Shown here piece after piece: positions 2,076 to 50,003 of a stretch of DNA of 64,000 nucleotides. The translations under genes were made by a program, and so were the position numbers. Position 1 is the first letter of the stretch. Every line of letters begins with the position of its first letter. The stretch is from positions 1 through 64,000 of the IMG/VR virus record IMGVR_UViG_3300032268_001605; one strand, 5' to 3'. The notes under the pieces are model-generated. The model saw nothing but the letters and a program-made list of their open reading frames with translations, made no database searches and was not told the origin of the DNA. The stretch is from a virus.

Positions 2076-3161
2076 TTATTCAAATTGTTCAACTACCTTA
2101 AATCCACCTTCTTTTAAGTAGCTCTCCCTTTTGAATAATTCTAAATCAGATTCAACCATTTCCCTACACAATTCTTCAACACTACAGGTTGGTTCCCAAC
2201 CCAATTCACTTTTAGCCTTAGAATAATCACCAATTAACAAGTCAACTTCTGCTGGTCTAAAATATTTAGGATCTATCTCAACTAAAACTCTTCCGGTTTC
2301 AATATCGTACCCCCTTTCATTTACACCCTCTCCAACCCATTTAAGTTTAATTCCAATGTGACTAAAAGACATTTCAACAAACTTTCTAACACTAATCTTT
2401 TTATTGGTAGCTAATACATAGTCATCTGGTTTATCCTGTTGTAACATTAACCACATTCCACGAATATAATCCTTCGCATGTCCCCAGTCACGTTCAGCAT
2501 CCAAATTACCTAATAGAATCTTGTCTTGTAATCCGTGATAGATTTTTGCAACACCACGAGTAATTTTTCTTGTTACAAAAGTCTCACCTCTAACTGGACT
2601 TTCATGATTGAATAAAATTCCAGAACAAGCAAACATCTCATAAGATTCACGATAGTTCTTAGTTATCCAGTGTGCATATAATTTAGCTACACCATAAGGA
2701 CTTCTTGGATAAAAAGGTGTGGTTTCCTTCTGAGGAATTTCTTGTACTAGGCCAAACATTTCAGAAGTCGATGCTTGATAAAATTTAGTTTTCTTTTCTA
2801 ATCCTAAAATTCTGATTGCTTCTAAAATTCTAAGTGTTCCAATTGCGTCCGCATTCGCTGTATATTCAGGTGTCTCAAAGGAAACTTTAACGTGTGATTG
2901 AGCGGCTAAGTTATAAATTTCATCAGGTTGAACTTGTTGAATAATTCTGATTAGGTTAGTAGAATCTGTTAAATCACCATAATGTAGAAAAAAGTTTTCT
3001 GATTTTTCTTTATAAAGGTGGTCGATTCTATCCGTATTAAATAGTGAACTTCTTCTTTTGATGCCGTGTACAATATACCCCTTTGATAGGAGTAATTCTG
3101 ATAAGTATAATCCGTCTTGTCCGGTTATTCCTGTGCAAAGTGCTACTTTCTTATTCTGCAT
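2076..3161 (-). CDS. gmd: GDP-mannose 4,6-dehydratase
   Basis: A 361-residue short-chain dehydrogenase/reductase that converts GDP-D-mannose to GDP-4-keto-6-deoxy-D-mannose, the first step to GDP-fucose, GDP-rhamnose or GDP-perosamine. Visible motifs are the Rossmann glycine motif TGITGQDG (residues 10-17), STSEMFG with the catalytic Ser/Thr and Glu (131-137), and YGVAK (156-160). Its length is that of the family. No reductase (fcl or rmd) or perosamine synthase is in the window, so the final sugar is unknown, but GT10 and GT11-like fucosyltransferases nearby make GDP-fucose the leading candidate. It is the most downstream gene of the glycan cluster. Confidence 0.95.
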
Positions 3162-3163
3162 TT

Positions 3164-3796
3164 TTATAAATTTTTATTTCTGAATAAAACATTACCCATA
3201 TCTTGATGTGGTAAATCCTCAAAAACCACCTCAAAGTTATTAATTTCTAGAAATTCTTTGTATTGTGGATAAAGTAAAACATTTTCATATGTCTCAATCA
3301 GGGAAACTTCTGTGTAGAGATATCTTGTTTTAGAGAGTGTTGTGATAGAATTTTTCAAAACGCTTGGTTCGGCCCCCTGCATATCCAACCACATTAAATC
3401 AATTTTTTCTATTTTCTCTTGTTCACAGAAGTCATCTAAAGTTATAGATTCTATTATTCTTTCCACATTAAAAGTTATTTGTGGATGAACCTGTAAGTGG
3501 TCTTTGGGTTTTAAGAGTGACGATGAAGCAAAAATTTGTCCAAATCTATCACTTATAAAAATGTTCTGCTGACCAGTTTCTGATGAGAGTGCTTTTTTGA
3601 AAAGATTCAAATTTTTGTATTGATAAAGTTTCTGAGAACAGAAATTAAATAGTTCATCAACTGGTTCGAAAGCATATACTTTACCGTAAGTAAATCTATC
3701 ACAGAAGAACTGTGTATCACTACCATCGAAAGCGCCAGCTTCAACTATTATTGAGTCTAAACTTAAATTATTAATTATCCAATCTTGTATTTTCAT
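3164..3796 (-). CDS. FkbM-family methyltransferase
   Basis: A 210-residue class I SAM-dependent methyltransferase of FkbM type. The SAM-binding motif is [12 protein letters not shown] (about 16-27), followed by the acidic loop YAFEPV (41-46) and the family signature [13 protein letters not shown] (137-149). FkbM proteins commonly O-methylate sugars or polyketides. It ends 2 bp before the start of gmd, so the two are co-transcribed and it probably methylates a cluster glycan. A second FkbM gene lies at 4664-5296. Confidence 0.85.
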
Positions 3797-3811: not shown

Positions 3812-4660
3812 TTAATCTTCTGATACTGCTCTGCCTATTTGTTTTTCCCAATCTTTATTGGTTCTCACTTCTTTATTTTTCTCGATTGTTGCGGTCAACA
3901 TCGTTGTTTTAATATTTTTAGAGTCTGCTAAGAATTTTAGACTTGAAATATCTTTTGGAAAGCAATGTCCACCAAACCCCATATCACCATCGTGTCCAGG
4001 AACTGACCAATGAGAGTTTCCTAATCTATTATCATATTTTGTGTATTCTATTACTTTATCAAAATCTATATCAACTGCTTGACATATTTGATATATCTCA
4101 TTAGCGAATGAAAGTTTTGTTGCCAAGAATGTATTAGTAACATACTTCACCATTTCGGCAATAGTCGAAGAAGTTTTTATTATTGTAACATTCGGGAAAG
4201 CCTTTTCAAAAATTGATTTAACAGTAGATGTATGAGGTCTTTCGCCACCAACAATAATTCTATTCTGATTCTTGAAGTCTTCGTTTGCGTTAGCTTCTGT
4301 TAAAAACTCTGGGTTAAAAACTATATTTATGTTTTTGAATTGTGAGTTCAAGCTTTTAGTTGTTCCAGGAGGTATAGTAGATTTTATTACAACAATAAAA
4401 TCTTTTTTATTTAGCGAATCTACTATTAGTCCTACTTGTGATAAACAATTTTCCACAATGTATAAATCACACTCACCGGATTTTTTCATAGGTGTTGGTA
4501 GACATAAAAAAGTAACATCTACTTTTTCTATAAGTTCAAAAAGGGAGTTTTCTGTACAATTTCCTTTCAAATCAAAAGTCTTGATGTCAAAGAAATTACT
4601 TAGTCCTTCTTTTACAGCAGTTCCAACAAACCCCTGTCCTATTATTCCAATTTTTTTCAT
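3812..4660 (-). CDS. UDP-glucose/GDP-mannose dehydrogenase family protein, short form
   Basis: A 282-residue NAD-dependent nucleotide-sugar 6-dehydrogenase homologue. It has the Rossmann motif GIIGQGFVG (5-13), STIPPGT (94-100), NPEFL (116-120), the conserved Lys/Asn pair near 172-176, and the active-site GFGGHCFPKD with Cys233. The usual enzyme is about 400-450 residues; here the C-terminal nucleotide-sugar-binding domain is absent. The catalytic thiol is kept, so it may act on an unusual substrate or recruit another protein for binding. Confidence 0.8.
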   Translation of the reverse strand: MKKIGIIGQGFVGTAVKEGLSNFFDIKTFDLKGNCTENSLFELIEKVDVTFLCLPTPMKKSGECDLYIVENCLSQVGLIVDSLNKKDFIVVIKSTIPPGTTKSLNSQFKNINIVFNPEFLTEANANEDFKNQNRIIVGGERPHTSTVKSIFEKAFPNVTIIKTSSTIAEMVKYVTNTFLATKLSFANEIYQICQAVDIDFDKVIEYTKYDNRLGNSHWSVPGHDGDMGFGGHCFPKDISSLKFLADSKNIKTTMLTATIEKNKEVRTNKDWEKQIGRAVSED

Positions 4661-4663: not shown

Positions 4664-5296
4664 CTATAAAAATTTTTTCTTTACATAGATTGCATCTCCC
4701 CAATATTGTCCCATCCAATTTTCATCGACCTTAACAAAATCGAAACCTGATAGAAATTCGTCGATTTCGTTGACCAGTGCACAATTTTCATACATATACA
4801 CTTTATTTACTTCCGAATTAATTATATCTATGTTAGGTAGTATATTAGTAGCGCCTTTTAAAACCTCGAGTTCATAACCCTGAACATCAATGTTGAGTAC
4901 GTTATATTCGACCTCGGAATCTTTTAGGAATTCATTTAAAGTTGTTATCTGAACAATTTCTCTAAACGGGAACTGTATTCCCGGATATTGTGTCAAGTGA
5001 AATGCTGGTTTAAGTATAGAAGAAGACTGACCTTCGTTTGCCACTTCAACAAACATTTCTATGTCACCAGTTTTATTACCTAAAGCTTTATTCACAAATA
5101 ATAAATTACAACTTTCTGATTTATTTTTTTCTCTAACATTTTTTTCAAGTCTTTCAAATGTCTTGGACAAAGGTTCGAAAAAAACTACATTTTTGAAATT
5201 TAACTCATTATATGTAACGATTTCATAACCAAAGTGTGCTCCAACATGAAGTACACCCCTTGGTTCTATTTTGTATTTTAAAATAAATTCTTTCAT
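4664..5296 (-). CDS. FkbM-family methyltransferase
   Basis: 210 residues with the SAM motif VLHVGAHFGYE (about 15-25), FFEPLSKTFERL, and the FkbM signature LNIDVQGYELEVLKG (about 132-146). It is distantly similar to the other FkbM protein in the cluster and ends 3 bp from the short dehydrogenase gene. It probably O-methylates a sugar of the glycan made by the cluster; the target position cannot be told. Confidence 0.85.
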   Translation of the reverse strand: MKEFILKYKIEPRGVLHVGAHFGYEIVTYNELNFKNVVFFEPLSKTFERLEKNVREKNKSESCNLLFVNKALGNKTGDIEMFVEVANEGQSSSILKPAFHLTQYPGIQFPFREIVQITTLNEFLKDSEVEYNVLNIDVQGYELEVLKGATNILPNIDIINSEVNKVYMYENCALVNEIDEFLSGFDFVKVDENWMGQYWGDAIYVKKKFL

Positions 5297-6041: not shown

Positions 6042-6482
6042 TTATTTCATATATTTTATTATGTAATCTGAACATAAACCCAAACATTCATTAACATCAT
6101 CATTAAATAACTCAGGCATTACTGAGATACTATTTTTTATAGGTTGATTTCCAGGGAAAACCCACATATGACCTTTAGAAGTCAAAGTCATTAAATCATT
6201 TTCATGCCAGAAATAGTTTAAATCTATTTTATTGATATTGAAATATTCAATTGATTCTTTGTTTTTACAATGAACCCAAAGTTTATTCTTTCGATTTAAC
6301 AACCACTCCAAAACTATTGCACTTTCTGGTCTATCGTGTCCTAAAAAGAACGACTCTTGAATTAACCAAACATCAATTTCGACATCATATCCAAGTGAAA
6401 GAGCCTCATCTATAAAATCAGTTGTATTTTCTCTGTCTATAGTTCTACCATATAAATTTCCTCTATGAGATATTAAAATCAT
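6042..6482 (-). CDS. GDPD-like (glycerophosphodiester phosphodiesterase-like) protein
   Basis: 146 residues with the start of a GDPD TIM barrel: ISHRGNLYG (3-11), ENT, EALSLGYDVEIDVWL with the catalytic Glu/Asp pair, and FFLGHDRPE. The family normally has 230-250 residues and a full barrel, so this is a minimal version. It lies 2 bp downstream of the RuBisCO-like gene. It might remove or process a glycerophospho-type substituent; the substrate is not evident. Confidence 0.65.
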   Translation of the reverse strand: MILISHRGNLYGRTIDRENTTDFIDEALSLGYDVEIDVWLIQESFFLGHDRPESAIVLEWLLNRKNKLWVHCKNKESIEYFNINKIDLNYFWHENDLMTLTSKGHMWVFPGNQPIKNSISVMPELFNDDVNECLGLCSDYIIKYMK

Positions 6483-6484: not shown

Positions 6485-7717
6485 CTAAAAAATCCTATAG
6501 GCTAAATCAGGTGAAAAATTCTTCTCTCCCCATTTTTTTATGGCTTCTATATACTCAATTTGTGAGTAATCACCGTTTATAGATTGTTTCATTGCTTTTG
6601 CTCCTGATAGCGTTCCCATAGGGTGACCATGTAGTGCACCACCTACATTAGCCATCCAGTCAGTCGAATTCAAGAACTGATTTATATATGATACTAAACC
6701 GGGATGCATTCCACAACTTAGCGCTGGTACAATATTATATTTCCACAAAACTTTCAAAGCATCAATGAGTTCCTCATCATCTTGATTCATATATCCACCA
6801 ATCATACCAGCGTGAATAGAGTCAGCTCCAGACCATCCAGCTATTTTACAAATTACAGGCCAATAGATGTGAAAAGGTGATATTCTGTCTGTAAAAAATT
6901 TATCACCGCTTTTCTGAAAGTGTATCCAAAGATTTGGATTTTCTTTTCTAATTGCTCTATAAACACCTAACCCACTCCAAACATTTATGTGTATTCCTGT
7001 ACCGCCTTCTTCTGATACAAATTTTGCCCTTTGAAGAGCGTATGGACTATCACCATTAATACAGAATGTATAAATTACATCTGGCGCATTTTTTTGTAAC
7101 CAATTCGATATAAGCGGTACTCTCTTTTGTAAGGTGCAATGTGATGGGTTACCAAGCAACTCATCTTCTTTTATAAAGTTAACACCACCATCAACCATTT
7201 CTTTTACTGCTTCTAATAGAATGTCCGGACTCATTCCCAATTTTGGTTTGATTATACCACCTAAAAAAGGCTTCATTTCTACTCCGTTGAATTTTCGGAA
7301 TCCATCTATACCGTATGCAGGTTTTAATCTGAAAGTTCTTTCTAATTCCTCTGGTAAAGTGATGTCTAAAATTACACACTTTTCTATTTCAAGTATATCA
7401 ACTTGACCACCGGCTATGTGACAGATAATTTGTGAAATACCATCTTCCTCAAAGTCGATGTTCGATATAGGGAAAGCAATTTCAATGATACCCTCTTCAA
7501 CAGACTTCAAATATGACTCGTCGCCTAATACTACACAGCTATGATTCTCAAACATCTCCTGAGTTTCCCAAATGCTTCTATTGTTTGGATTACCTATACT
7601 TTGACCTATTGCTAAATTCCAGGCTGCATCTTTTAGTGACGTTCTGCCTTTTAGGAAATACTTCACTATGAAGTATTTGTTTCTATCAATCTCTTGACTG
7701 AAAATATTAAAAGTCAT
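6485..7717 (-). CDS. RuBisCO-like protein (form IV type)
   Basis: A 410-residue homologue of the RuBisCO large chain. Aligned by eye, it keeps the active-site lysines in GGIIKPKLGMS (K157, K159), the carbamylation/metal site GGVNFIKEDE (K183, D185, E186), a histidine at 266, IHAGMIGG with H302, Ser334 in LSCGMH, and the phosphate-binding NVGGALHGHPMG. The loop-6 lysine needed for carboxylation is missing (IGGYMN), so true CO2 fixation is unlikely. RuBisCO-like proteins catalyse enolisation, isomerisation or decarboxylation of sugar-phosphate-like substrates. It sits between a cupin gene and a GDPD-like gene inside a glycan cluster. Confidence 0.85.
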   Translation of the reverse strand: MTFNIFSQEIDRNKYFIVKYFLKGRTSLKDAAWNLAIGQSIGNPNNRSIWETQEMFENHSCVVLGDESYLKSVEEGIIEIAFPISNIDFEEDGISQIICHIAGGQVDILEIEKCVILDITLPEELERTFRLKPAYGIDGFRKFNGVEMKPFLGGIIKPKLGMSPDILLEAVKEMVDGGVNFIKEDELLGNPSHCTLQKRVPLISNWLQKNAPDVIYTFCINGDSPYALQRAKFVSEEGGTGIHINVWSGLGVYRAIRKENPNLWIHFQKSGDKFFTDRISPFHIYWPVICKIAGWSGADSIHAGMIGGYMNQDDEELIDALKVLWKYNIVPALSCGMHPGLVSYINQFLNSTDWMANVGGALHGHPMGTLSGAKAMKQSINGDYSQIEYIEAIKKWGEKNFSPDLAYRIF

Positions 7718-7786: not shown

Positions 7787-8107
7787 TTATACATTATATT
7801 TATCACCAGGTAAAGATGGTGTTTTGATTACTACAAGTTTGCAATCTGTGTGGAAAACTGGGTCTGCTACTTCGAAAGGATATATCACAAATACATCTCC
7901 CGTTCTTAATTCTTTATCTCCTATTCTCATTTCACCATCAATTAAGAAATTGATTTCTGTTGCAATTTTATGTATATGTGCAGACCAAATCTCTCCTTTT
8001 TTGTGATTGAGTATTCCCACTTCAAATTGTTCTGTTTTGAAACAAGCTGGTTCAAAATTTCCAACAAACCAACCTCTAAAATAATCTTCAATTCTACTTA
8101 TTTTCAT
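7787..8107 (-). CDS. Small cupin protein
   Basis: 106 residues with a single conserved beta barrel: GILNHKKGEIWSAHIHK contains the first cupin motif with metal ligands H44 and H46, E51 follows, and the second motif spans RTGDVFVIYPFEVADPVFH with H86. Such proteins are sugar epimerases, isomerases or binding proteins. Its start overlaps the nucleotidyltransferase gene by 14 bp, implying translational coupling, and the RuBisCO-like gene follows 69 bp downstream. Confidence 0.75.
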   Translation of the reverse strand: MKISRIEDYFRGWFVGNFEPACFKTEQFEVGILNHKKGEIWSAHIHKIATEINFLIDGEMRIGDKELRTGDVFVIYPFEVADPVFHTDCKLVVIKTPSLPGDKYNV

Positions 8108-8777
8108 ACTCTAAATATTTTTTCAAATCTTCTGGTGTACCAATTGGATAATGTTGATTAAACATATATATTCCCACTTTATAGTTTTTTTGTATAAGAT
8201 AGCTGTATGATGGAGCAATATAGAATTCATCATTTGTTCTATCATTCTTCTCAAACATTTCATCACAAGATTCAAAAAAATATTTCGCTTTCCTCCAGTA
8301 ATGTAGGCCGTTTGTCGCAATGTTTGAAATCACTACCTTTTCTCTAACCTCTGTGACTAAATTACTTTCGTCCACTTTGACAAATGAGTTTTTTGGTGAA
8401 TTAGAAATGAAGCATCCTAAAACTCCGTCAAATTTTCTTGCAAAAGTCAAAAAAAGTTCTTGATTCCAATCTTTAATAATTTGATCACAATTAGTAATTA
8501 TGAGCTCATCCTCTAAATTGATTATTGATTTTGATAGATAAGCACTACATGCTGGACCTTCAGTTGTGTAGTCTATTTCAATTTTGTCAACGTTTTCTAA
8601 GGTTAGATTGTGTTCATTTCTGGTAATTATTATTAGTTTACAGTCACCCCTAAAGTTTTCAATGACGTGTTCTATCATGTTTCTACCATTCCAACTAATA
8701 AGCGGTTTGGGTTCCTGATATTCTGAATTTATGAATCTGCTTCCTCTTCCTGCAGCAGGTATTAAAATTTGTAACAT
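8094..8777 (-). CDS. Sugar-phosphate nucleotidyltransferase-like protein
   Basis: A 227-residue NTP_transferase-type enzyme. It begins MLQILIPAAGRGSRF, the glycine-rich nucleotide-binding signature, has EPKPLISWNGRNMIEHV with the conserved Lys, and TNCDQIIKDW with the metal-binding Asp at about 98. It would activate a sugar phosphate to an NDP-sugar for the glycosyltransferases. It lacks the extended C-terminal part of dTDP-glucose synthases. It starts 11 bp after a glycosyltransferase-like gene and overlaps the cupin gene. Confidence 0.8.
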   Translation of the reverse strand: MLQILIPAAGRGSRFINSEYQEPKPLISWNGRNMIEHVIENFRGDCKLIIITRNEHNLTLENVDKIEIDYTTEGPACSAYLSKSIINLEDELIITNCDQIIKDWNQELFLTFARKFDGVLGCFISNSPKNSFVKVDESNLVTEVREKVVISNIATNGLHYWRKAKYFFESCDEMFEKNDRTNDEFYIAPSYSYLIQKNYKVGIYMFNQHYPIGTPEDLKKYLEYENK

Positions 8778-10361: not shown

Positions 10362-11188
10362 TTTTTATTTATTTTTTTTAGAAGCATGTGAGCAATACTA
10401 CCCTCGAAAAATAGTTCTATTATCTCGAAACTAGTTAATATGTGGAAAATCTTTATAAACTCCGAATGTGAACCAAGACAAGTACTATAAAATAGATAAT
10501 TTGTTGTTTCTAAGACTTCAGAAGATTCAAAATATTTTTCTATTGGTAGTTCACTCAAACTATGATTAGCAATTACTAAATCAAATTTTTGTTTTTTAAC
10601 TTCGTTTAAGCTATCTGAATATAAAATTCGTTCTAATTGAGTTTCATCAAGATTCTTTTTCAGGAAAAATTCTTGTAGTCTAGACATACCCGGTATGTCA
10701 ATAATTGTGTAATTGTTAATATTTATGACTAACTTGAACAGTAACCTACAAACATTGCCATATCCTCCGCCAAACTCCAATATTCTCAAATCTTCAATTT
10801 CGTTGAATCTGAAATGTTTTATTAAAAATGTTAGATATATCAAATGGTTCGCTGTAACATAAGAAGTAATTCTGGGACTTCTCTCACTGATAACTTTTTT
10901 CTGATCGTCTGTGTATCCGACCAAAGAGTCTCCTATTGAAGCTAGTTGTTGGAATATTTCTGGTGAAATTAAATTACAATGATTCATAGCATGGTTAAGT
11001 ATCTCATTGTAGTTGTCTATTCTAGCAATACAAAAATGAAAATTTTGATCTGATTGAAATTTTTCCAATTCCTCTTCCGTAAAGTCAGGAAATTTTATGT
11101 CTTCAACCCAATAGTCGTAGTCGACTTTTTGTAATTTTTTTTTGTTTTTTTTATAGATTTCTCTCAGTAAATTGTTTTTTTCAATCAT
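10349..11188 (-). CDS. Putative sugar O-methyltransferase
   Basis: A 279-residue class I methyltransferase. The SAM motif I is LRILEFGGGYGNVCRLL (about 146-162), with TIIDIPGM as the acidic second strand and DLVIANHSLSELP as motif IV. The pattern (long helical N-terminus with SPRITSYVTANHLIYL, then the Rossmann core) matches the putative sugar O-methyltransferase family. Operon overlaps on both sides place it in glycan modification. Confidence 0.7.
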   Translation of the reverse strand: MIEKNNLLREIYKKNKKKLQKVDYDYWVEDIKFPDFTEEELEKFQSDQNFHFCIARIDNYNEILNHAMNHCNLISPEIFQQLASIGDSLVGYTDDQKKVISERSPRITSYVTANHLIYLTFLIKHFRFNEIEDLRILEFGGGYGNVCRLLFKLVININNYTIIDIPGMSRLQEFFLKKNLDETQLERILYSDSLNEVKKQKFDLVIANHSLSELPIEKYFESSEVLETTNYLFYSTCLGSHSEFIKIFHILTSFEIIELFFEGSIAHMLLKKINKKCLK

Positions 11189-12039
11189 TTTAAATTATTT
11201 TTTTTTGTAATAAAATTTTGCAATTTTTTTCTAAGTTCCGATTTAAAGTTTACAAACCATTCATTAACTTTTTGATTTAATAATCTTTTATCAACATTGC
11301 TACATTGATTTTTCACATCATTCCAATCTTTTGCGACTATGAAAGGGTGATCGCCATAAATTTTCTCAAAATAGTCAGTGCCGTCTTTCTCGAAGATCGA
11401 AACAGGTATTGAACCACACTCAAGTGCCTCATTTATTCTAAAACTATCTAATGATATCCACCCTCTGGGACAAAGTGTGAACCAACTTCTACTCAAAACT
11501 TCTGAATATTGAGTTAGATTCAAAGAATCAGGATCATTCCACATTCTTGTCAGATAAAAATAAGAGTTGGGTAAAACTTTGAAAGTATTCAACATTTCAT
11601 ATCTATCCGACTTTAACTGTCCCACAAAATTAACTTCAATAGTTTTATCTGTTTGATTTTTTTTAACACCACTTTGATACCCTAATGGTATTGTCATCAA
11701 ATTGAATTTTTTTGTATATTCTTCATTATAATAGTTTCTAATTATTTTTCTCGAAACGTCATAAAAGTCTATGTTTTGTTCAAAAGCCTCATCAGATAAA
11801 TGTAGAATAGAATAGTTTAAATTTAATTTATTATACTCTTGTATATAAGAAATTAAACTATTATTAGAGTCTTTCCCAACCGATACAATTATGACAGAAT
11901 TATTTTCGAAAGTTTGAAATCTATTTTCAAAATCATCGATATGAGTTATTTCAAATTTTGAAAAAATTTCTTCAATCCAATTTAATGAAAAATTCTTTTC
12001 ATATTGAGATTTAACACACCAAATCATATTTATTTTCAT
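11185..12039 (-). CDS. Exostosin-like (GT47-type) glycosyltransferase
   Basis: 284 residues. The C-terminal half has the exostosin-type donor-binding stretch RSWFTLCPRGWISLDSFRI followed by NEALECGSIPVSIF. This same pattern is found in the C-terminal domain of the 495-residue protein at 14499-15986. It overlaps both neighbours by 4 bp (ATGA-type junctions), so it is tightly coupled within the operon. Confidence 0.75.
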   Translation of the reverse strand: MKINMIWCVKSQYEKNFSLNWIEEIFSKFEITHIDDFENRFQTFENNSVIIVSVGKDSNNSLISYIQEYNKLNLNYSILHLSDEAFEQNIDFYDVSRKIIRNYYNEEYTKKFNLMTIPLGYQSGVKKNQTDKTIEVNFVGQLKSDRYEMLNTFKVLPNSYFYLTRMWNDPDSLNLTQYSEVLSRSWFTLCPRGWISLDSFRINEALECGSIPVSIFEKDGTDYFEKIYGDHPFIVAKDWNDVKNQCSNVDKRLLNQKVNEWFVNFKSELRKKLQNFITKKNNLK

Positions 12040-13626: not shown

Positions 13627-14502
13627 TTAATCTAATATTTTTTTAAAAAAATTTAATACATTTTCAGGTTGAACAAAATCAGGTATTTTATTATCTACAA
13701 ACCAAGGTTGATTTATCATATCGTTATATAGATTTTCGTCCGAATCAATTTTTATGATTTGCTCTATAAATTCTTCGTCAGATTTATAGTCATGATAGTT
13801 CAAAAAAGAGTTCCTGTTAAAATCATTAGAAACAAATGGATCACCCCAGTAAATCGGTATACACCCAGCGAACATCGAGTTTATTATCTTTTCAGTACAA
13901 TAACCCGAGTGGCTAGAATTCTCGAAAGATACGTTGAACTTATATTCTTTTAGGAAGTTTATTTTATAAATTTGGTCACCTCTACCAGGAACTAAAGGAA
14001 TATTGTTAAAGAGTCTGCCACCACAATCTATATGCTTATATCTATAGAGTTTTGGAACAAAATCTAATCGTTTTCCCATCGGTTTAGACGCTATAAAACT
14101 ACAAAATTTTGTTTTTTGAGGTATTTTCTTATTGAGGAAATCGTCTATACTGTGTAAATAAGCTTGATCTCTTTCGTCTCTATAAGGTCGGTCAAACCAG
14201 TTTAATATCAGTGCCCAAAGTGGTAAGCGATAATTCCTCGGGTCCGAAGAATAATCAAACGAGATTGAATAGTGACAATTTGTATAATCAGGTCGAAAGT
14301 TTTCACCGGTATACAAAATTTTAATAACCTTCTTCATATCATATTTCAAATGGTTATTTGAGTATACTGTATAAAAAAGTACATCAGGGTTGATATTATC
14401 GATTTCTATCTCATACCGCAGAGAGAGTAGGTTATAGAAGTAATTATCAGTTGGTATCAGTTCACCCCAAAAATCAGAAAAACCAATTTTTATTTTTCTC
14501 AT
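13627..14502 (-). CDS. GT10-family (alpha-1,3/1,4-) fucosyltransferase
   Basis: 291 residues with the strong GT10 signature at about 190-222: NVSFENSSHSGYCTEKI, then FAGCIPIYWGDP. In this family these residues bind GDP-fucose. The N-terminal half has the expected KFCSFIASKPMGKR. Together with gmd and a GT11-like gene it argues that the cluster makes a fucosylated, Lewis-like or related glycan. It overlaps the upstream gene by 4 bp. Confidence 0.9.
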   Translation of the reverse strand: MRKIKIGFSDFWGELIPTDNYFYNLLSLRYEIEIDNINPDVLFYTVYSNNHLKYDMKKVIKILYTGENFRPDYTNCHYSISFDYSSDPRNYRLPLWALILNWFDRPYRDERDQAYLHSIDDFLNKKIPQKTKFCSFIASKPMGKRLDFVPKLYRYKHIDCGGRLFNNIPLVPGRGDQIYKINFLKEYKFNVSFENSSHSGYCTEKIINSMFAGCIPIYWGDPFVSNDFNRNSFLNYHDYKSDEEFIEQIIKIDSDENLYNDMINQPWFVDNKIPDFVQPENVLNFFKKILD

Positions 14503-15986
14503 AATCTTTTAATTATTATTTTTGATAGCGATTCCAAACTAAAAAAATCATCATACACTTTTATTGCATTCTCTGACATTTGTTTAATTCTATCTTGACT
14601 AATTTGGGTCAATATTGAGTCTAATTGATTTAATTGAGAATAATGTACTGATACAGAAAAATCATCCCAATTGACATCACTTTTAAATGCTCTCCAATCT
14701 TCATCAAAAATATAAACAGGTATACTACCTAATTGCATAGCCTCATACATTCTAAATGAATTTCTACCATAGCCCCTCGGGCACAAGGTAAATACGCTTC
14801 TTGATGTGATATCCATGAATTCTTCTAATTGGTTATTACTCACTTTATCAGTCCATTGTTTATATTTCAAAAGATATTTCTGATTTGAATTCAACACATT
14901 TATCATTTCTTGTCTGATTTGGTGTGTAACAGAACCAACAAAGGAACAGAATATATCTTTTTCTCTCCTAATTTTATATTTGTCTGGAATTGGTGAACAA
15001 ACCAACGGAATTGGTATACCAATTGAATTCCCACCAGCACAAAATTTTAATGTACCCGAAGGTAACCATTCCCTTATAGCATCATCATGTTGACTGACAG
15101 TAAAGTATTTCTTTGTTTTATCTAAACTCAAAATCTTTTCTTGAAGTAAGGGTAGATTTACATTTTGTATATAACAAGTTGTCCAGTCTACTGGAATCAA
15201 GTGAACACTCTTTTTAATTACGTTATTCTTAAAAAATTCAATAAAATAAGAATCTAAATATTTACCTTCATGATAAGGAGGATAAATAGGATATGTAGGT
15301 TCTGGTCGAAACTCTTTAAAATATTCAAATAAAAAGCTTTGATAATCAGATTTATTACATTTTACTTGTTTTTTTAACTCTTGTTTATATTTAACCAACT
15401 CTAATAATTTTATCTTATTATCGATACCTTCTGTCCAATTTGAGTGGTGCATCAATATATCATCAGGTATATCAAAATTTTGTCCTTTCCACTGCTGTTG
15501 ATATGCGCCGAAAGTCCAAAATTTATTTGACAATACTTTCACCTTACAAAAGTTTAGATTCATATTCAAAGCATGTTGGTCTTCTCTATAAAGATTGTGA
15601 TTATCCTTCATAGATTGAAACATTTTGAGTGTTCTTTCATTACCTCTGCAGATAAAAAAACCAGAACATAACCCACCTGCGTAATCATTTTGGATAGCAA
15701 TATCAGCATCACCAAGTTCTCCAACGAGAGTCTCTTTTATAGAACCAAAAAATTGAATATCAACATCTGAAAAGATGAATACTCCATCCATATTTTCCTT
15801 TACTCCTTTCAAGAAGACATCAACCTTCTTCATAGTAGTTGTTTTCCAACCATCTTGATAGTATGATCCAGACTTACAATCTTGTTCTCCAATTGTAGCA
15901 TCAATTTCCAAATCCACTAATGATTTCTTAAAATAGTTTTCAAAAAGATTAGCGTGACTTTCTGTATAATATGTATATACTTTCAT
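14499..15986 (-). CDS. Two-domain glycosyltransferase: GT77-like plus exostosin-like
   Basis: A 495-residue fusion. Residues about 1-200 form a GT-A domain of nucleotide-diphospho-sugar transferase type with FIFSDVDIQFFG (DxD), GGLCSGFFICRGN and YREDQHALNMNLNF. Residues about 260-495 form an exostosin-like domain with RSVFTLCPRGYGRNSFRMY and EAMQLGSIPVYIF. It probably adds two successive sugars, as bifunctional glycan polymerases do. It is the longest enzyme of the cluster. Confidence 0.75.
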   Translation of the reverse strand: MKVYTYYTESHANLFENYFKKSLVDLEIDATIGEQDCKSGSYYQDGWKTTTMKKVDVFLKGVKENMDGVFIFSDVDIQFFGSIKETLVGELGDADIAIQNDYAGGLCSGFFICRGNERTLKMFQSMKDNHNLYREDQHALNMNLNFCKVKVLSNKFWTFGAYQQQWKGQNFDIPDDILMHHSNWTEGIDNKIKLLELVKYKQELKKQVKCNKSDYQSFLFEYFKEFRPEPTYPIYPPYHEGKYLDSYFIEFFKNNVIKKSVHLIPVDWTTCYIQNVNLPLLQEKILSLDKTKKYFTVSQHDDAIREWLPSGTLKFCAGGNSIGIPIPLVCSPIPDKYKIRREKDIFCSFVGSVTHQIRQEMINVLNSNQKYLLKYKQWTDKVSNNQLEEFMDITSRSVFTLCPRGYGRNSFRMYEAMQLGSIPVYIFDEDWRAFKSDVNWDDFSVSVHYSQLNQLDSILTQISQDRIKQMSENAIKVYDDFFSLESLSKIIIKRL

Positions 15987-24325: not shown

Positions 24326-26179
24326 ATGCCATCAAAGTTAACAAATGGGGAATTTATAGAAAAAGTTAAATTAAAACACGGTGATAAATGGGATTACTCA
24401 AAAGTAGACTATACTGGATCTAAAAATAAAGTTATAATTATTTGTAAAGAACATGGTGAGTTTACACAAACAGCATCAGATCATCTAGCTGGTTGTGGTT
24501 GTCCAAATTGCGATCCAACTAAAAGACTGACTGCAGACGAATTCATAAAAAAATCAGTAGTCATGCACGGTGATAGGTGGGACTATTCAAGAGTTAAATA
24601 TGGTAAAAATAACTACGATTTAGTAGAAATTCTTTGTAAAGAACACGGAATATTTCAGCAAAGGCCTTGGGCACATTTAAGGGGTCAAGGTTGTCCAAAA
24701 TGTGTTAATAATACAATAATGACAACACGTGAATTTATTGAAAGGTGTATAGAAAAACATGGCGATAGGTGGGATTATTCAATAACAGAATATATTGGTA
24801 GAAGAAGGGAGGTATCTATTATATGTAAAAATCACGGTATATTCAAACAAGAAGCTCGAGTTCATTTGGAGGGATTTGGTTGTAAAATGTGTAATAATTC
24901 GAGAATGGAACACTATCTATCGGTCAAATTGAGGGATATGAATGAGCCGTTCGAAACAAATAAAAAATTCAAAGATTGTAAAAATAAAAATCCATTACCA
25001 TTCGATTTTTATTTACCTCTTAGAAATATGTTAATTGAGTGTGACGGTATACAACACCGAGAGTCAATAGAATATTTCGGTGGGCAGGAGAGATTAGAAT
25101 ATCAAAAAAATAATGATAAAATCAAAAACAAATGGTCAGAAGAAAGGGGAATACAATTAATAAGACTTGATAACAATTTAGAAATAGATAATTTTATCAA
25201 ATCTTTACAAACAAAAAAATTAGTATTTGATAAATCTGTTTTGAAGGATTTGAAAGAAAATAGAACAAACCCAAAAAAGAAAGCAGATGGATATTTGAGA
25301 GAAACTGACTTTAACTGGTTGAATAGTGGAGCGATTCATAAAGAAATCGACATGTATATTAGTGGACTTAGAGTAAATTTTTCTACCAACTTTACTTTCA
25401 AATCAGAAAATATCAATTGGATAGTAAACAATAATTATATAATTCTAATTGACAATTTTAAAGATTCTGAGATAAATAGAAACAAAAATTGGTTAGTTAT
25501 TTTAAAGAATGAATTGGAAAGTTTAAATAAAAATTTAATTGTAATTTATCCCGAAGATTGGATTTTAAATAAAGAAATAACCAAAAGTAGACTGAGAAAT
25601 ATACTTAATTTGAACCAAATTAAAATTGGAGCAAGAGAATGTCAAATAATAATACCCCAGAATAAATCAGTTTCTAAATTTTTAATTGATAATCATATTC
25701 AAGGGCACGTTAATGGAAGTATAAAAATTGCATTGACATATAATGATGAAATAGTTAGCCTAATGACGTTCGGTAAACTTAGAAGAAATTTAGGAAATAC
25801 ATCTAAATTAGATTCCTATGAACTACTAAGATTTTGCAATAAGAAAAACTACTCTGTTATTGGGTCAGCAAGTAAATTAATGAGTTTCTTTAAGAAACAA
25901 TATTCCCCAAAATACATACTTTCGTATGCTGATAGATGTTGGACAAGTATTAATAAAAATATTTATAAAGAATTAGGTATGGATTTGGTTAGTAAAACAC
26001 CTCCATCTTATTCTTATCTAGTCGGAGAAAAAAAATATGATAGATTCAGATACAGAAAAGATAAATTGATAGAATTTGGATATGACAAAGATAAATGGAC
26101 AGAAAGAAGTATATGTTCTTCTAATTTAGTATTTAAAATATTCGATGCTGGTTGCTTAAAATATGAAATGAATTTGTAA
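24326..26179 (+). CDS. Modular homing-type endonuclease with zinc-ribbon repeats, DUF559-like nuclease and conserved C-terminal domain
   Basis: 617 residues. Three about 60-residue repeats (for example KHGDKWDYSKVDYTG, then IICKEHGEF and GCGCPNC) carry Cys/His pairs and look like recognition units. Next is a DUF559-like nuclease: FDFYLPLRNMLIECDGIQH and KNKWSEERGIQLIRL. Residues about 330-430 (EIDMYISGLRVNF to VIYPEDWILNKEI) match the EDxHD nuclease region of the 49984 protein but have lost its catalytic residues. The C-terminus (ARECQI to SYADRCW) is shared with three other window proteins. It lies between the halves of split intein A. Confidence 0.8.
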   Translation: MPSKLTNGEFIEKVKLKHGDKWDYSKVDYTGSKNKVIIICKEHGEFTQTASDHLAGCGCPNCDPTKRLTADEFIKKSVVMHGDRWDYSRVKYGKNNYDLVEILCKEHGIFQQRPWAHLRGQGCPKCVNNTIMTTREFIERCIEKHGDRWDYSITEYIGRRREVSIICKNHGIFKQEARVHLEGFGCKMCNNSRMEHYLSVKLRDMNEPFETNKKFKDCKNKNPLPFDFYLPLRNMLIECDGIQHRESIEYFGGQERLEYQKNNDKIKNKWSEERGIQLIRLDNNLEIDNFIKSLQTKKLVFDKSVLKDLKENRTNPKKKADGYLRETDFNWLNSGAIHKEIDMYISGLRVNFSTNFTFKSENINWIVNNNYIILIDNFKDSEINRNKNWLVILKNELESLNKNLIVIYPEDWILNKEITKSRLRNILNLNQIKIGARECQIIIPQNKSVSKFLIDNHIQGHVNGSIKIALTYNDEIVSLMTFGKLRRNLGNTSKLDSYELLRFCNKKNYSVIGSASKLMSFFKKQYSPKYILSYADRCWTSINKNIYKELGMDLVSKTPPSYSYLVGEKKYDRFRYRKDKLIEFGYDKDKWTERSICSSNLVFKIFDAGCLKYEMNL

Positions 26180-26217
26180 AAAAAAAGAGGTGTAGATTAA
26201 TCTACATCTCTTTTTTT
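26178..26217. terminator. Bidirectional terminator between convergent nuclease genes
   Basis: An 11-bp stem (GAGGTGTAGAT / ATCTACATCTC, one G-U pair) with an A-run on the left and a T-run on the right. It serves the plus gene ending at 26179 and the minus gene ending at 26197. Confidence 0.85.
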
Positions 26218-28038
26218 ATACATAAATTTAATCGATCCACAATCATATATTCTACATATACCCAACTTATTACATATTTCATATTCACTTAGACTTTTAT
26301 CAAATCCCATTTTTAAAAAAACATCTTTCCTATATAAAAATCTATTTTTTCTATATGCACCAATGATATGATAATAGGATGGTTTTGAATCATCAAAATA
26401 ATTCATCCCAATTTTACTATACATACTATCTTGATTCGACCACATTTTATCAGCATATGATATAACTCTATTTGGATTATAAATATCTAAAAAATATTTA
26501 AAAAGCCTAGATGCTGCACCAACAACAACATAATTCAACTTGTTACAGAACCTTAATAATTCATAAGAATTCTTTTCAGATTTTTGACCTAAATTTTTTC
26601 TAAGTTTTCCGAATGTCATTAGACTAATAAGTTCATTATTATAATATAGACCTAATTTTATGGAAGATCCCAAATTTCCTTGTATGTGATTTTTTATTAA
26701 AAATTGACTGACTATCTTAGTATCTCTTATTTCTCTAATTTCACATTTTCTAGCATAAACTTTTTTAGACAAATACAACATTGATAATATCCTCGACTCA
26801 ACTATTTCTCTTTTATATATCCATTGATCCTCAAATACTTGAATTAATTTAAATCCATTTAATTTAAATTTATTATTCATATTTAAATGATGGTTTTTAT
26901 CAACATTTATATTTGATCCACTAAAAATACCTATGAAATTTATTCCCAATTTAATATCTGGTAAAAATATATCATATCTATATTCCTCAATCTCAAAATC
27001 GATTATTATATTATTTTTATAAATATTTTTTATAAAAATAATAAAGTTATCTTTTGCATCTAAATATGACTTTATATTAAACTCACTCTTTTGAATATTA
27101 TTTATAGTCTGATCGTATTTAACTTTTTCCAAAAAAGTATAAAATTTTTTTATACTTTTTTCATAATCATCAAATTTTATTCTAAACAAATTTACTCCAT
27201 TTTTTTCACACCAAGTATTTTTGATAAAATCATTTCTCACTACTTTATCAAAATATTCATCACCCCCGAATTTATCAACTATTTCATAATGATGCCTACC
27301 ATCATATTCTAAACATATATTATATTTAGGTAAATAAAAATCAAATGGTAGTTTTCTACCACCATCACCAACACAATTTTCAAATTTATACTCTCTTATA
27401 AATTTTATATTTAATGAAGTTAAACATTTAGCTATCATCATTTCACCCTTGCTAAAATTACATAAATTACATCCATGTCCATTTAAATGATCTTTAGGGG
27501 ATTGAAAAAAAGACCCATGTTTACTACAAATTATTTCTACTTTAGTTCGATTATTTTTATAATCAACATTTGAATAACCATACATATTATTATGTATTTT
27601 ATTCGATTCATTAATGAATTCAATATTATTTTTTCTTTTTACTCCAGCACAAGATGAGCAAGATTGTCCTAATAAATGATTCGATGGCAAGATATTAAAT
27701 GGTCCATGATATTTACATATCACCTCAATTTTTTTTGATGAATTAATATAATTAACTTTACTATAATCAAACTTATTACCATGCTTTTCTATAGCAAGAT
27801 TAATGAAAATCTCATTATTATATTTTACACCACCATTACAAGAAGGACATCCAACTTTTCTAACATGTGCATCAGGTCTAACAAAAAAAGAACCGTGTTC
27901 TTTACAAATTATTTTAACTTTTTCAATTGAATTTATATATTCAACTTCCGAATAATCATATTTATATCCATGTCTTTTTAAAGCCTTGTATATAAATTTT
28001 TCTCTTAAAGAATCTTTATTTTTAACCGGATTTCTCAT
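26197..28038 (-). CDS. Modular homing-type endonuclease, paralogue of 24326-26179, with two nuclease regions
   Basis: 613 residues. Three zinc-ribbon-like repeats (KHGNKFDYSKVNY, VICKYHGPF, CSSC and similar) come first, then an intact-looking DUF559-like nuclease (FDFYLPKYNICLEYDGRHHYE, NTWCEKNGVNLFRI). A second nuclease-like region, YDIFLPDIKLGINFIGIF to VFEDQWIYKREI, aligns with IEFNG and EDDW of the 49984 protein but has Asn for the catalytic Glu. The conserved C-terminal domain (ARKCEIREI to SYADKMWS) ends the protein. It sits with its paralogue between the intein A halves. Confidence 0.8.
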   Translation of the reverse strand: MRNPVKNKDSLREKFIYKALKRHGYKYDYSEVEYINSIEKVKIICKEHGSFFVRPDAHVRKVGCPSCNGGVKYNNEIFINLAIEKHGNKFDYSKVNYINSSKKIEVICKYHGPFNILPSNHLLGQSCSSCAGVKRKNNIEFINESNKIHNNMYGYSNVDYKNNRTKVEIICSKHGSFFQSPKDHLNGHGCNLCNFSKGEMMIAKCLTSLNIKFIREYKFENCVGDGGRKLPFDFYLPKYNICLEYDGRHHYEIVDKFGGDEYFDKVVRNDFIKNTWCEKNGVNLFRIKFDDYEKSIKKFYTFLEKVKYDQTINNIQKSEFNIKSYLDAKDNFIIFIKNIYKNNIIIDFEIEEYRYDIFLPDIKLGINFIGIFSGSNINVDKNHHLNMNNKFKLNGFKLIQVFEDQWIYKREIVESRILSMLYLSKKVYARKCEIREIRDTKIVSQFLIKNHIQGNLGSSIKLGLYYNNELISLMTFGKLRKNLGQKSEKNSYELLRFCNKLNYVVVGAASRLFKYFLDIYNPNRVISYADKMWSNQDSMYSKIGMNYFDDSKPSYYHIIGAYRKNRFLYRKDVFLKMGFDKSLSEYEICNKLGICRIYDCGSIKFMYKKRDVD

Positions 28039-42298: not shown

Positions 42299-43678
42299 AT
42301 GATTAAGAACATTCACGAAAAACTAATGGAATCTGTTCAACAAATGTTGATTGACACTAAGGTTTCACTACCTTACTACGGAAGCTTCAATCTGTTCGTC
42401 AATTTTGCTGAAAGAAAAGACATCGATACCTGTGCTGTAAATATGACTGCTAAAGGCATGAATTTCTATTTCAATTCAGAATTCCTCGATAGACTTACTC
42501 AAAAAGAAGTCAACTTCATTACACTTCACGAAGATTTTCACCTTCTTTGGAACCACCCTAAAAGAACAATTACCGGTCAATACGACCACCGACTTTCTAA
42601 CATTGCCCAAGATATGATTATCAACCATATCATTTGGGAAGATATACCTAACTCCTATGTCGAAATACCAAAAGATAAAGATGGTAAGAACATGGCTCTT
42701 TTTATTCCGAAAGAATACACAGGTAAACTAATCTTTGAAGAAGTTTATGAATGGCTAAGAGACGAAAAAGAAAAAAGAGATAAACAGAAACAGTCTCAAC
42801 AATCACAAGATGGTGATGAACAAGGTGATTCTAAAAGTAAAGGCAAAGGCAGTAAAAGTGATAAAAACGGCAATGGTGACCAGAGTAGTGGTGATGGAAA
42901 TGAGAAAGGTGATGATAAGTACGGTCCATATGGTAAGAATCCTAAGAACGAAAAAGAAACTATTGACACCTGGTCATTAGATCAGATTCTTGACAACTTA
43001 GATTCAAATGGAGGTCAATACTTAGATACTCACTTAGGTGATGAAATCCCAGAAGAAATGAGAGAATCTATGGTGAAAGATGCTATGGATAGACTACAAG
43101 CACGTGGACTTTCTGCAGGTAACATCGAGACTACCCTAAACAAACTGAGAAAACAAAGAAAAGATTACTTGAAAGAAATCAAGAGAACTGTTTCTAATTT
43201 GATTTTTGGTACAAAGAAAGAAAAGACTATTAAGAAACCAAATAGAAAAGGTATTCAAGGAGTAAAGGGCAATCGTAAAGTTAAGACTAAGATTAATGTG
43301 GGGCTTGACACCAGTGGCAGCATGGGTGGCCATGGAACGTTCGAAAGAGTTCTTTCTTATGTCTATCAAAACGATATCGAGATTAACTTTATGGAATCTG
43401 ACACACAAGTGAACTGGGTTGAAAAATTAAAGTCTAAAAAACAATTAGAGTCAATACCTATAAAAGGTTTGGGTGGAACTTGCTTGAGCCCGATGATAGA
43501 TTATATCGTTGAACATCACAATGACTGTTCAACAGTTTTACTAACGGACGGATACACTGATTCTTTAGATTTCTCTAAAGTAAAAGGAAATGTTTTGATA
43601 ATTTCTGTTGGTGTCCCTTGTCCAATTCTAAAATCTAATGGTAAGGTTAAACAGATTTGTATTGAAAACACTCATTAA
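42299..43678 (+). CDS. Metallopeptidase-like plus VWA-domain protein (DUF2201-type)
   Basis: 459 residues. The N-terminal domain has FITLHEDFHLLWNHP, an HExxH zinc-binding motif in the form used by DUF2201-type VWA proteins. A Lys/Gly/Ser/Asp-rich disordered linker (residues about 160-215) follows. The C-terminal VWA domain has the MIDAS motif VGLDTSGSMGG and LLTDGYTDS. Such proteins act with MoxR-type AAA+ ATPases as a chaperone or metal-insertion pair; that partner is at 51676-52833. Preceded by a host-type promoter, so probably expressed early or middle. Confidence 0.85.
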   Translation: MIKNIHEKLMESVQQMLIDTKVSLPYYGSFNLFVNFAERKDIDTCAVNMTAKGMNFYFNSEFLDRLTQKEVNFITLHEDFHLLWNHPKRTITGQYDHRLSNIAQDMIINHIIWEDIPNSYVEIPKDKDGKNMALFIPKEYTGKLIFEEVYEWLRDEKEKRDKQKQSQQSQDGDEQGDSKSKGKGSKSDKNGNGDQSSGDGNEKGDDKYGPYGKNPKNEKETIDTWSLDQILDNLDSNGGQYLDTHLGDEIPEEMRESMVKDAMDRLQARGLSAGNIETTLNKLRKQRKDYLKEIKRTVSNLIFGTKKEKTIKKPNRKGIQGVKGNRKVKTKINVGLDTSGSMGGHGTFERVLSYVYQNDIEINFMESDTQVNWVEKLKSKKQLESIPIKGLGGTCLSPMIDYIVEHHNDCSTVLLTDGYTDSLDFSKVKGNVLIISVGVPCPILKSNGKVKQICIENTH

Positions 43679-43709
43679 AAAAAGTCTCACTTAAGTGAGA
43701 CTTTTTTTA
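43677..43709. terminator. Bidirectional terminator between VWA gene and nuclease
   Basis: Perfect palindrome AGTCTCACTT / AAGTGAGACT with A- and T-runs on both sides. Confidence 0.88.
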
Positions 43710-45475
43710 ATTTCATATTTGATTTTCCCACAATCCCATACTTTATTTAGATCCAGTTTTGATTCAGACACACCAGTTATAGACTTCTTGAACCCAGACT
43801 TATGTTTTCTAACTCCGTTTAGTACATATTTGTAGTCTGGTTTTGTTTCATATAATTTTATGAATCCGATTTTTTCATATAAATTACCCTGACTCCAATC
43901 TTTATCTGCGTATGAAATTATTCTATTTGGATTATATTCTTTAATAAAATGATTCAATAATTTTGATGCACCACCAACTACATAATGATTTGATATATTG
44001 CAGAATCTAGATAAATTCCATTCATTATTAGCCATTTTTTTTCTACCTTCAAATTTATCGAAAGTCATTACCCCAACTAGTTCATCTTGATAATAGAGCC
44101 CGAAAGATTTATTTATATTTGGATAATCTCCTTGGATATGATTTATTTTAAGAAATTGCCTACAAATGTTATAATCAATTATTTCCTTCACATCACATTT
44201 TCTTGCATGTATTTTAGTAGATAATCCTAAAACGTTCATTATTTGAGATTCTATTATGGATCTTTTGAAATCCCAATCATCTTCCCAAATATTTATAATT
44301 CTAATACCCTTATCTCTAAAACGATTTAATTTATCAATATGGTAATCTTTGCTTCTAAATTTATCGGAATGAAAGTATAATCCATTAAATTCAAAACCAA
44401 TTTTCAAATTCGGAAGATAGATATCAATTTCTAAACCATCACGATACGATTGTATTATTTCACCTCTGAAATTATTTTTTATAAAATTATAAATATCCTT
44501 CTCCTTTATTGATTTATGTTCACCAATTGGATTGCATATTGTACAAATTGACACACCACTTTTTGTCCTTCTAAAAAAGTTATCAGTGTTTATTTCGAAA
44601 TTATTATTACATAAATCACATTTGAATAAACTTATAGAATTACCAACATAGTTTATATAATTTGGATGATTGGCGATATTGAAGTTGTTTCGTCTAAATT
44701 CTTCATTTTGAGATGAATTCTTCACACCGTATTTTAGAATATAATTAAACTCTCTTCTATTCTTTATTTCTTCAGACTGAATTGGATGATAGAATCCATA
44801 CCTTTCCAAATTTGTATTTTTAGTTTTTTCCCTCAATTCAATAGATTTCTGAGGATTAGTGACTCCCCATTTCACCAACAACGTATTGATTGACTTTGAA
44901 AACACATCATTATTTTGTAACGGTGACATATATCCATATCTTTCAAGGTTTGTGTTCTTAATTTTATTTTTAACCTCTTCAGATTTTGATGGTGATGTGA
45001 ATCCATATTTCTCTAAATTAGTTTTTTCTGATTTTTTTTGTTTATCTTCTGATTGTAAGTACCACTCAACACCATATTTTTCCAAATTAGTTTTCTTAAC
45101 CTTTTCTGTATATTCTTCTGATTTTGTATAAATTTCAAATCCATATCTCTCTAAACAAGTTTTTTTTCTTTTATCCACGGAATCTGTAGATGACATATAT
45201 GTCTCCGATCCGTATTTTTCCAAATTTGTTTTTTTTATTTTTTCTTTTACAATTGGAACTTGCGATATATTTGTCACACCATATTTTTCTGTTAGAATTT
45301 CTTTTGACCTTATTGCAGCACATTTTTTAGAGCAACAAAAATTTAAAGCAAAATCTTTAGTACTTCTAGTGTATTTTATCATTTGTACAGAGACAATTGA
45401 ATCACAATAGATACATTTGGCTTCTATCAATTTTCTCGATCCCCTCGAAATATTTGTAACATCACTGATTATCAT
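43691..45475 (-). CDS. Modular homing-type endonuclease with KYG repeats and EDxHD-like nuclease
   Basis: 594 residues. A zinc-ribbon-like N-terminus (AKCIYCDS, FCCSKKCAA) precedes seven or eight 33-38-residue repeats of the form KKTNLEKYGVEWYLQSEDK, likely a DNA-reading array. The nuclease region has GLEIDIYLPNLKIGFEFNGLYFHSD, KDYHIDKLNRF and INIWEDDWDFKRSI, the catalytic set of Vsr/EDxHD enzymes. The C-terminus (ARKCDVKEI, NHIQGDYP, VVGGASKLL, SYADKDWS) is shared with 24326, 26197 and 49984. It is inserted between the VWA gene and a nucleotidyltransferase-like gene. Confidence 0.85.
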   Translation of the reverse strand: MIISDVTNISRGSRKLIEAKCIYCDSIVSVQMIKYTRSTKDFALNFCCSKKCAAIRSKEILTEKYGVTNISQVPIVKEKIKKTNLEKYGSETYMSSTDSVDKRKKTCLERYGFEIYTKSEEYTEKVKKTNLEKYGVEWYLQSEDKQKKSEKTNLEKYGFTSPSKSEEVKNKIKNTNLERYGYMSPLQNNDVFSKSINTLLVKWGVTNPQKSIELREKTKNTNLERYGFYHPIQSEEIKNRREFNYILKYGVKNSSQNEEFRRNNFNIANHPNYINYVGNSISLFKCDLCNNNFEINTDNFFRRTKSGVSICTICNPIGEHKSIKEKDIYNFIKNNFRGEIIQSYRDGLEIDIYLPNLKIGFEFNGLYFHSDKFRSKDYHIDKLNRFRDKGIRIINIWEDDWDFKRSIIESQIMNVLGLSTKIHARKCDVKEIIDYNICRQFLKINHIQGDYPNINKSFGLYYQDELVGVMTFDKFEGRKKMANNEWNLSRFCNISNHYVVGGASKLLNHFIKEYNPNRIISYADKDWSQGNLYEKIGFIKLYETKPDYKYVLNGVRKHKSGFKKSITGVSESKLDLNKVWDCGKIKYEIKKSLT

Positions 45476-49969: not shown

Positions 49970-50003
49970 AAAACTGAATCATACTAACGATTCAGTTTTT
50001 TTA
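49970..50003. terminator. Bidirectional terminator overlapping the end of the nuclease gene
   Basis: 10-bp stem AAACTGAATC / GATTCAGTTT with an 8-nt loop that contains the nuclease stop codon; T-run on both strands. Confidence 0.75.

Follow-up and report, generated by a model that had tools for sequence, protein, structure and literature searches.

The window analysed here, a 64,000-base stretch of a 139,250-base virus record, encodes at positions 6485–7717 (minus strand) a 410-amino-acid RuBisCO-like protein (RLP; P0001) whose reading frame is intact, with an ATG start and no internal stop. The protein matched Pfam families RuBisCO_large (2.3e-32) and RuBisCO_large_N (7.4e-5), each exceeding its curated cut-off, and its AlphaFold2 model (pLDDT 92.7, pTM 0.90, from an alignment of 55 relatives) had form III RuBisCOs as its top Foldseek matches in the PDB (for example, 2d69: TM 0.84, E 6e-28, 26% identity); these searches together showed the N-terminal alpha/beta domain and C-terminal TIM barrel typical of the RuBisCO superfamily. 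Its neighbours are those that a first-pass annotation of the sequence had described. Upstream lies a single-domain cupin of 106 amino acids (7787–8107, minus strand) with an HxH...E metal motif (alignment A2), a match to PHROG 24762 (2.2e-34) and matches to PDB cupin profiles. The start of the cupin gene is overlapped by 14 bases by a gene for a 227-amino-acid MobA/RmlA-like nucleotidyltransferase (8094–8777, minus strand; Pfam NTP_transf_3, 2.1e-9), which has the NTP_transf_3/NTP_transferase fold and the GxGxR...PK signature, with G10, G12, R14 and K24 invariant. On the other side of the RLP gene is a miniature GDPD/PLC-like phosphodiesterase (6042–6482, minus strand) of 146 amino acids, little more than half the length of the usual GDPD TIM barrel (~250 amino acids), which retains the HR..EN..E.D..HD pattern (alignments A4 and A6; profile match to 7e0v, 6e-4): across 43 rows, H6, E18, N19, E35, D37 and H49 were invariant and R7 nearly so. 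Its AlphaFold2 model had a pLDDT of 97.4 and gave a Foldseek list rich in GDPDs (TM 0.40–0.61), none at E ≤ 0.001. Found repeatedly in phage sugar cassettes, this mini-GDPD may form or cleave phosphodiesters of sugars.

These genes sit in a wider glycan cluster, also on the minus strand, which includes a GDP-mannose 4,6-dehydratase (2076–3161; Pfam GDP_Man_Dehyd, 8e-157), two FkbM methyltransferases (3164–3796 and 4664–5296; Pfam, 2.6e-17 and 1e-16), a UDP-glucose/GDP-mannose dehydrogenase family protein (3812–4660; Pfam), a GT47/RXYLT1-like glycosyltransferase (11185–12039; Pfam RXYLT1_C, 2e-11) and a second glycosyltransferase with Nucleotid_trans and GT47/RXYLT1-like domains (14499–15986; Pfam). 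In animals, the RXYLT1 family adds xylose to ribitol phosphate, and the two RXYLT1_C-like glycosyltransferases perhaps hint that the glycan contains a pentitol or a pentose. Among the neighbours of the RLP, no Calvin-cycle gene was recognised, and this gene context supports the earlier suggestion of a route to an unusual sugar rather than CO2 fixation.

Active-site residues were tabulated, in spinach numbering, from a MAFFT L-INS-i alignment of 55 rows (the query and relatives at 43–80% identity to it). The two KPK lysines K175 and K177 (here K157 and K159) and the superfamily metal site K201, D203 and E204 (K183, D185 and E186, with putative carbamylation at K183) were unchanged in all 55 rows, as were S379 (S334), G381 (G336) and G403/G404 (G359/G360); H327 (H302) was histidine in 45 rows and glutamine in 10. 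The loop-6 lysine, K334, was replaced by Tyr309 throughout. The pattern of kept and lost residues given in the first-pass annotation was thereby confirmed, and the metal ligands, whose loss on proper alignment would have spoken against its interpretation, are retained. Further replacements were equally uniform (T65 to N43, W66 to P44, N123 to G104, H294 to Q268 and G380 to C335, each in 55 of 55 rows), E60 is replaced by G38 in a column that is invariantly glycine, and R295 is lysine in 48 rows and serine in 7. The residue set Lys334/Glu60/Asn123/His294 of the form I–III carboxylases is thus absent from the alignment (Y309, G38, G104 and Q268 in its place), and the changes at the P5 site (H294Q and R295K/S) appear compatible with a monophosphate, whichever that may be. 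Among relatives, dN/dS was 0.03–0.07, and the RLP is an enzyme under strong purifying constraint. Because of this constraint and the residues kept and lost, we read the protein as one that would form an enediolate on Mg2+ and be unable to carboxylate it.

Phylogenetic analysis was consistent with this reading. Tree 1 (IQ-TREE) comprised 55 proteins (25 of the RLP family and 15 form I/II/III carboxylases, with MtnW, OiaX and other isoapionate-type RLPs), form II being represented by one row; tree 2 omitted the three longest end branches and had no row labelled form II. The viral RLP family was a single clade in both trees (100/100), its stem measuring 2.57 changes per column in tree 1, and the sampled carboxylases formed a separate clade that excluded it (100/97 in tree 1 and 100/99 in tree 2), contrary to the placement that would have overturned the first-pass annotation. 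From residues and trees, the latter drawn without Photo, NonPhoto, DeepYkr or Rhodospirillum rubrum (R. rubrum) RLPs and with some PDB rows partial, the protein is almost certainly a non-carboxylating member of the superfamily and as such a putative form IV protein. Orthology to MtnW or OiaX was ruled out by model scores and tree positions: the RLP scored 77.5 against the MtnW model TIGR03332 (cut-off 513.6) and 115 against the OiaX model NF042437 (cut-off 700), and each of the two formed a clade of its own (99/97 and 100/100, respectively). In tree 1, the isoapionate/OiaX group neighboured the viral clade (94/77); in tree 2, no sister group was resolved (a union with the isoapionate group had p-AU 0.398).

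Relatives of the RLP proved to be widespread in viral sequence data. Query-specific patterns found 23 RLP contigs in IMG/VR, profile A1 found 138 relatives, and profile A5 showed that at least 355 virus contigs encode the clade; together with the low dN/dS, this rules out a chance gene or an assembly chimera. The first-pass annotation had called a RuBisCO-like gene an unusual phage cargo; the gene is not a one-off. Among annotated phages, no RLP relative was found at a tblastn E of 1e-5. The BFVD viral structure library yielded no RuBisCO fold (best match E 6e-5, TM 0.36), and plasmid searches returned only distant OiaX, MtnW and RuBisCO types and no close RLP. (A highly divergent bacterial RLP on plasmid p3 of Pararhizobium qamdonense (L280:46-1170; branch 3.95) adjoins a transketolase gene and has histidine aligned at Glu204.) Across 84,980 species genomes, a scan for NFIKEDE/NLWIHFQ, which is blind to more distant cellular kin, found a single RLP contig, in a Patescibacteria metagenome-assembled genome, and a profile search of 380 Patescibacteria genomes recovered the same one close relative, the next three matches resembling form III RuBisCOs. 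Acquisition from a common bacterial host is therefore disfavoured. In the Patescibacteria locus, the GDPD-like, cupin and RLP genes are consecutive, the nucleotidyltransferase is on the opposite strand, and glycosyltransferase- and methyltransferase-like genes surround them, with no phage structural gene recognised among the neighbours; this copy, inside a bacterial glycosyltransferase locus, counts for a sugar-cassette role. Judged by the sequences compared, the RLP clade is a deep, almost exclusively viral branch of the RuBisCO superfamily.

Flanking genes within the window match, over several genes in one stretch, the uncultured phage LR745206 (634,780 bp), with 73% identity for a protease-like open reading frame at 22.6–24.2 kb and 46% over a 763-amino-acid frame at 34.0–36.3 kb. 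In earlier work, phages larger than 634 kb fell in the Mahaphage clade, and their hosts were predicted to be Bacteroidetes (PMC7162821). Given this and the LR745206 match, the window is probably a piece of a huge, Mahaphage-like phage genome, and we infer a Bacteroidetes host. It also holds several homing/HNH endonuclease genes (24326–28038, 42299–45475 and 49984–51576). Other RLP loci lie in different backgrounds (for example, those of L014–L034 beside tail-tube and single-stranded-DNA-binding-protein genes), and a TerL search recovered terminases in only 11 of 35 records.

The gene neighbourhood was assessed across 101 RLP loci (dereplicated at 95% identity, at least 7 kb each). Within 4 kb of the RLP gene, a nucleotidyltransferase was found in 99 of the 101 loci, the cupin in 91, the mini-GDPD in 77 and a glycosyltransferase-like family (F4) in 51; where cupin and RLP adjoin, their median gap is −4 bases. 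The cassette comprises the nucleotidyltransferase, the cupin, the RLP and the mini-GDPD, with a glycosyltransferase usually present as well. In L014–L034, the order nucleotidyltransferase–cupin–RLP–GDPD–F4 forms a mostly compact block between recurrent phage genes, which suggests that this five-gene set suffices when supplied with host precursors. An exception is L002 (a 174-kb record that may be a fragment), which has an RLP and a GDPD-like gene, with neither cupin nor nucleotidyltransferase anywhere in the record. That record also carries a stand-alone homologue of ribose-5-phosphate isomerase B (RpiB) about 7 kb from the RLP (L002:2522-2953), and at another locus (L205:2017-3480) the cassette cupin carries a fused extension of ~380 amino acids that is methyltransferase-like by eye. 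From these associations, the RLP very probably belongs to a movable cassette, which appears to make a nucleoside-diphosphate (NDP)-linked sugar, ketose or polyol.

A related cassette in cyanophages offers a view of what the RLP may replace. Synechococcus phages that lack an RLP carry cupins, GDPD-like proteins and nucleotidyltransferases of the families seen in RLP loci. In Synechococcus phage Bellamy, a single gene joins the nucleotidyltransferase to RpiB (PF02502, 3.9e-32), the cupin comes next, and the cluster also holds an AraD-like class II aldolase; SynMITS9220M01 carries the same 385-amino-acid nucleotidyltransferase–RpiB gene, and S-SKS1 has a nucleotidyltransferase fused to DHBP synthase (PF00926, 5.4e-65). 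Existing annotations describe these fusions differently: Bellamy gp206 (L083:6838-7995) is labelled 'phosphatase' and is in fact the RpiB fusion, and S-SKS1 AGH31555 (L087:5001-6428) is labelled DHBP synthase alone, although the fusion suggests an NDP-linked dihydroxybutanone. Upstream of the RpiB fusions are a KdsC-like phosphatase (TIGR01670, 2.8e-26, below cut-off) and a PfkB-like protein (5.9e-5). Among dereplicated cyanophage-type cupin loci, the KdsC-like HAD and PfkB-like genes occurred in 31 of 31, RpiB in 24 and the RLP in none, and none of the 101 RLP loci had RpiB, KdsC-like or PfkB-like genes within 4 kb; the two sets of counts come from searches centred on different relatives, and phylogenetic clustering inflates the significance of this alternation. 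The isomerase–kinase–phosphatase–nucleotidyltransferase set of the cyanophages resembles the heptose route GmhA–HldA–GmhB–HddC. Ribulose 5-phosphate is a substrate of RpiB as well as of DHBP synthase, and these fusions, with the AraD-like aldolase, suggest by analogy a pentulose phosphate as the substrate of the RLP too. Because RpiB stands in place of the RLP in these sister cassettes, an isomerase or epimerase acting on a pentulose phosphate is favoured over an enolase or a decarboxylase. The first-pass annotation had proposed a form IV enzyme with enolase, isomerase or decarboxylase chemistry; its non-carboxylase assignment stands on residues and trees, and the analogy with RpiB would narrow its three chemistries to isomerisation or epimerisation.

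Nucleotidyltransferases were compared across both cassette types. In DSL-LC03 and L006, the enzyme is fused to a HAD_2 domain, those of S-CAM9 and B23 have lengths suggesting the same fusion, and such HAD fusions are present in RLP loci too. The nucleotidyltransferase of the window is nearer to the HAD-fused forms (36–39%) than to the RpiB-fused form (28%), which counts against carrying the product over from one cassette type to the other, and a tree of the family gave no resolved answer on whether the RLP- and RpiB-linked enzymes share a substrate.

Together, these results lead us to propose, with a probability of roughly 0.5 for the reading as a whole, that the RLP is a non-carboxylating ketose-phosphate isomerase or epimerase feeding the cassette nucleotidyltransferase in the making of an unusual activated sugar. 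We infer the following substrate, isomerase chemistry, order of steps, final sugar and biological target. Lys183 would be carbamylated and, with Asp185 and Glu186, would hold Mg2+; Gly336, Gly359 and Gly360 would bind the phosphate of the substrate, a ketose monophosphate for which a pentulose 5-phosphate (D-ribulose 5-phosphate, for example) is the likeliest candidate. A proton would be removed and returned by Lys157 and the carbamate via an enediolate which, because the equivalents of Glu60, Asn123, His294 and Lys334 are gone, would collapse to an isomeric or epimeric ketose phosphate rather than fix CO2. The nucleotidyltransferase would then activate this product, and the cupin, GDPD-like enzyme and glycosyltransferase would complete the sugar or attach it to a glycan of the phage or of the host surface. 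A narrower assignment as a pentulose-phosphate isomerase, drawn from the cyanophage analogy, is tentative. It is also conceivable, if somewhat short of likely, that a virus-held RuBisCO branch was recruited for a nucleotide-activated ketose or rare sugar, its isomerase or epimerase replacing a whole isomerase–kinase–phosphatase route with a reaction new to the RuBisCO family. Precedents exist for individual steps: a cytidylyltransferase acts on a ketose phosphate in converting fructose-6-phosphate to CDP-6-D-fructose (PMC10918830), and the R. rubrum 5-methylthioribulose-1-phosphate (MTRu-1-P) isomerase is an RLP that isomerises a pentulose phosphate (PMC6302742).

Other functions were weighed against this proposal. 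The RLP could instead be a decarboxylase, or a transcarboxylase/hydrolase, of a beta-keto sugar-acid phosphate in the manner of OiaX and the isoapionate pathway, building a tetrulose or branched-sugar precursor; the neighbour relation in tree 1, the presence of OiaX among the closest NCBIfam models (2.8e-33) and the glycine at position 123 common to OiaX and the viral clade would agree with this. However, tree 2 did not recover that relation, K177 is kept in the viral RLP and lost in OiaX and the isoapionate types, the four-carbon acid sugar kinase that adjoins most cellular OiaX-type loci examined was not recognised near the viral genes, and the alternative cyanophage cassette uses an isomerase, so that we regard such chemistry as unlikely. 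Similarly improbable is that the RLP, cupin and GDPD-like enzyme act after the nucleotidyltransferase step, on a nucleotide-linked sugar or phosphodiester: the gene order nucleotidyltransferase–cupin–RLP–GDPD is compatible with such a sequence, and L002 has RLP and GDPD without the nucleotidyltransferase, but the fusions to RpiB and to DHBP synthase suggest a role in making the nucleotidyltransferase's substrate and, to our knowledge, all characterised RuBisCO-family enzymes act on free sugar phosphates. Still less probable is an R. rubrum-type methylthioadenosine (MTA)–isoprenoid shunt, in which MTRu-1-P would be isomerised by the RLP and methanethiol released by the cupin to give 1-deoxyxylulose 5-phosphate, perhaps then activated by the nucleotidyltransferase. 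That pathway is known to pair an RLP with a cupin (PMC6302742), and the cupin adjoins the RLP in most loci, yet this cupin family is linked just as closely to RpiB-type cassettes lacking an RLP, so its role is not confined to MTRu-1-P isomerisation, and general annotation and family scans of the neighbourhood brought no methylthioadenosine gene to notice. Finally, although viral rbcL genes are listed as carbon-fixation auxiliary metabolic genes in virome reports from a landfill (PMC12607003) and the Great Salt Lake (PMC8506154), a CO2-fixing RuBisCO is very unlikely here in view of the family-wide replacement of the four carboxylase residues and a position outside the sampled carboxylases, the surroundings being glycan genes with no Calvin-cycle gene recognised among them.

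A search of the literature, with most subscription papers and preprints outside its reach, found no paper linking RLPs to phage glycan cassettes. The RLPs whose roles are known to us are catabolic or salvage enzymes (methionine salvage, the isoprenoid shunt and apiose breakdown), and the viral family is a new clade with a probable new role. If correct, the presence of a conserved viral RLP clade in a cassette for sugar activation would extend the roles of the superfamily to biosynthesis, give studies of RuBisCO evolution a new branch and offer an experimental way into how large phages produce unusual sugars for surfaces or virions. It would likewise be a warning to check residues and neighbours before viral 'rbcL' matches are counted as carbon-fixation genes.

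Comparison with known systems places the viral RLP as follows. With the form III RuBisCO of Pyrococcus horikoshii (2cwx/2d69) it shares the two-domain fold, K175, K177, K201, D203, E204, H327 and the GG motif, but identity is only ~26% and E60, T65, W66, N123, H294, R295 and K334 are missing. The isoapionate-pathway RLPs, including OiaX and 3nwr, share a non-carboxylating RuBisCO fold with the metal site kept and are a possible tree neighbour; at 24–32% identity, they differ in losing K177, keeping K334 and, for the isoapionate RLPs and OiaX, having catabolic neighbours (four-carbon acid sugar kinase and TRAP transporters). MtnW, the DK-MTP-1-P enolase, resembles the viral RLP in its RuBisCO fold, its carbamate/metal site and a residue other than lysine at 334, and differs in the loss of K177 and H327 and in its methionine-salvage neighbours. 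The R. rubrum MTRu-1-P isomerase, likened here by description rather than by sequence, isomerises a pentulose phosphate and works with a cupin methylsulfurylase (PMC6302742), but serves methionine and isoprenoid metabolism, whereas the viral cassette cupin also serves RpiB-type sugar cassettes. The viral rbcL genes of the landfill and Great Salt Lake viromes, compared by description only, are likewise RuBisCO-family genes on virus contigs, one from the landfill clustering among 'RbcL-like' proteins (PMC12607003), and the accessible portions of those reports give them neither a cassette nor a glycan role. The Bellamy cassette has the cupin, nucleotidyltransferase and mini-GDPD families in common with the RLP loci, and in it RpiB, KdsC-like and PfkB-like genes take the place of the RLP.
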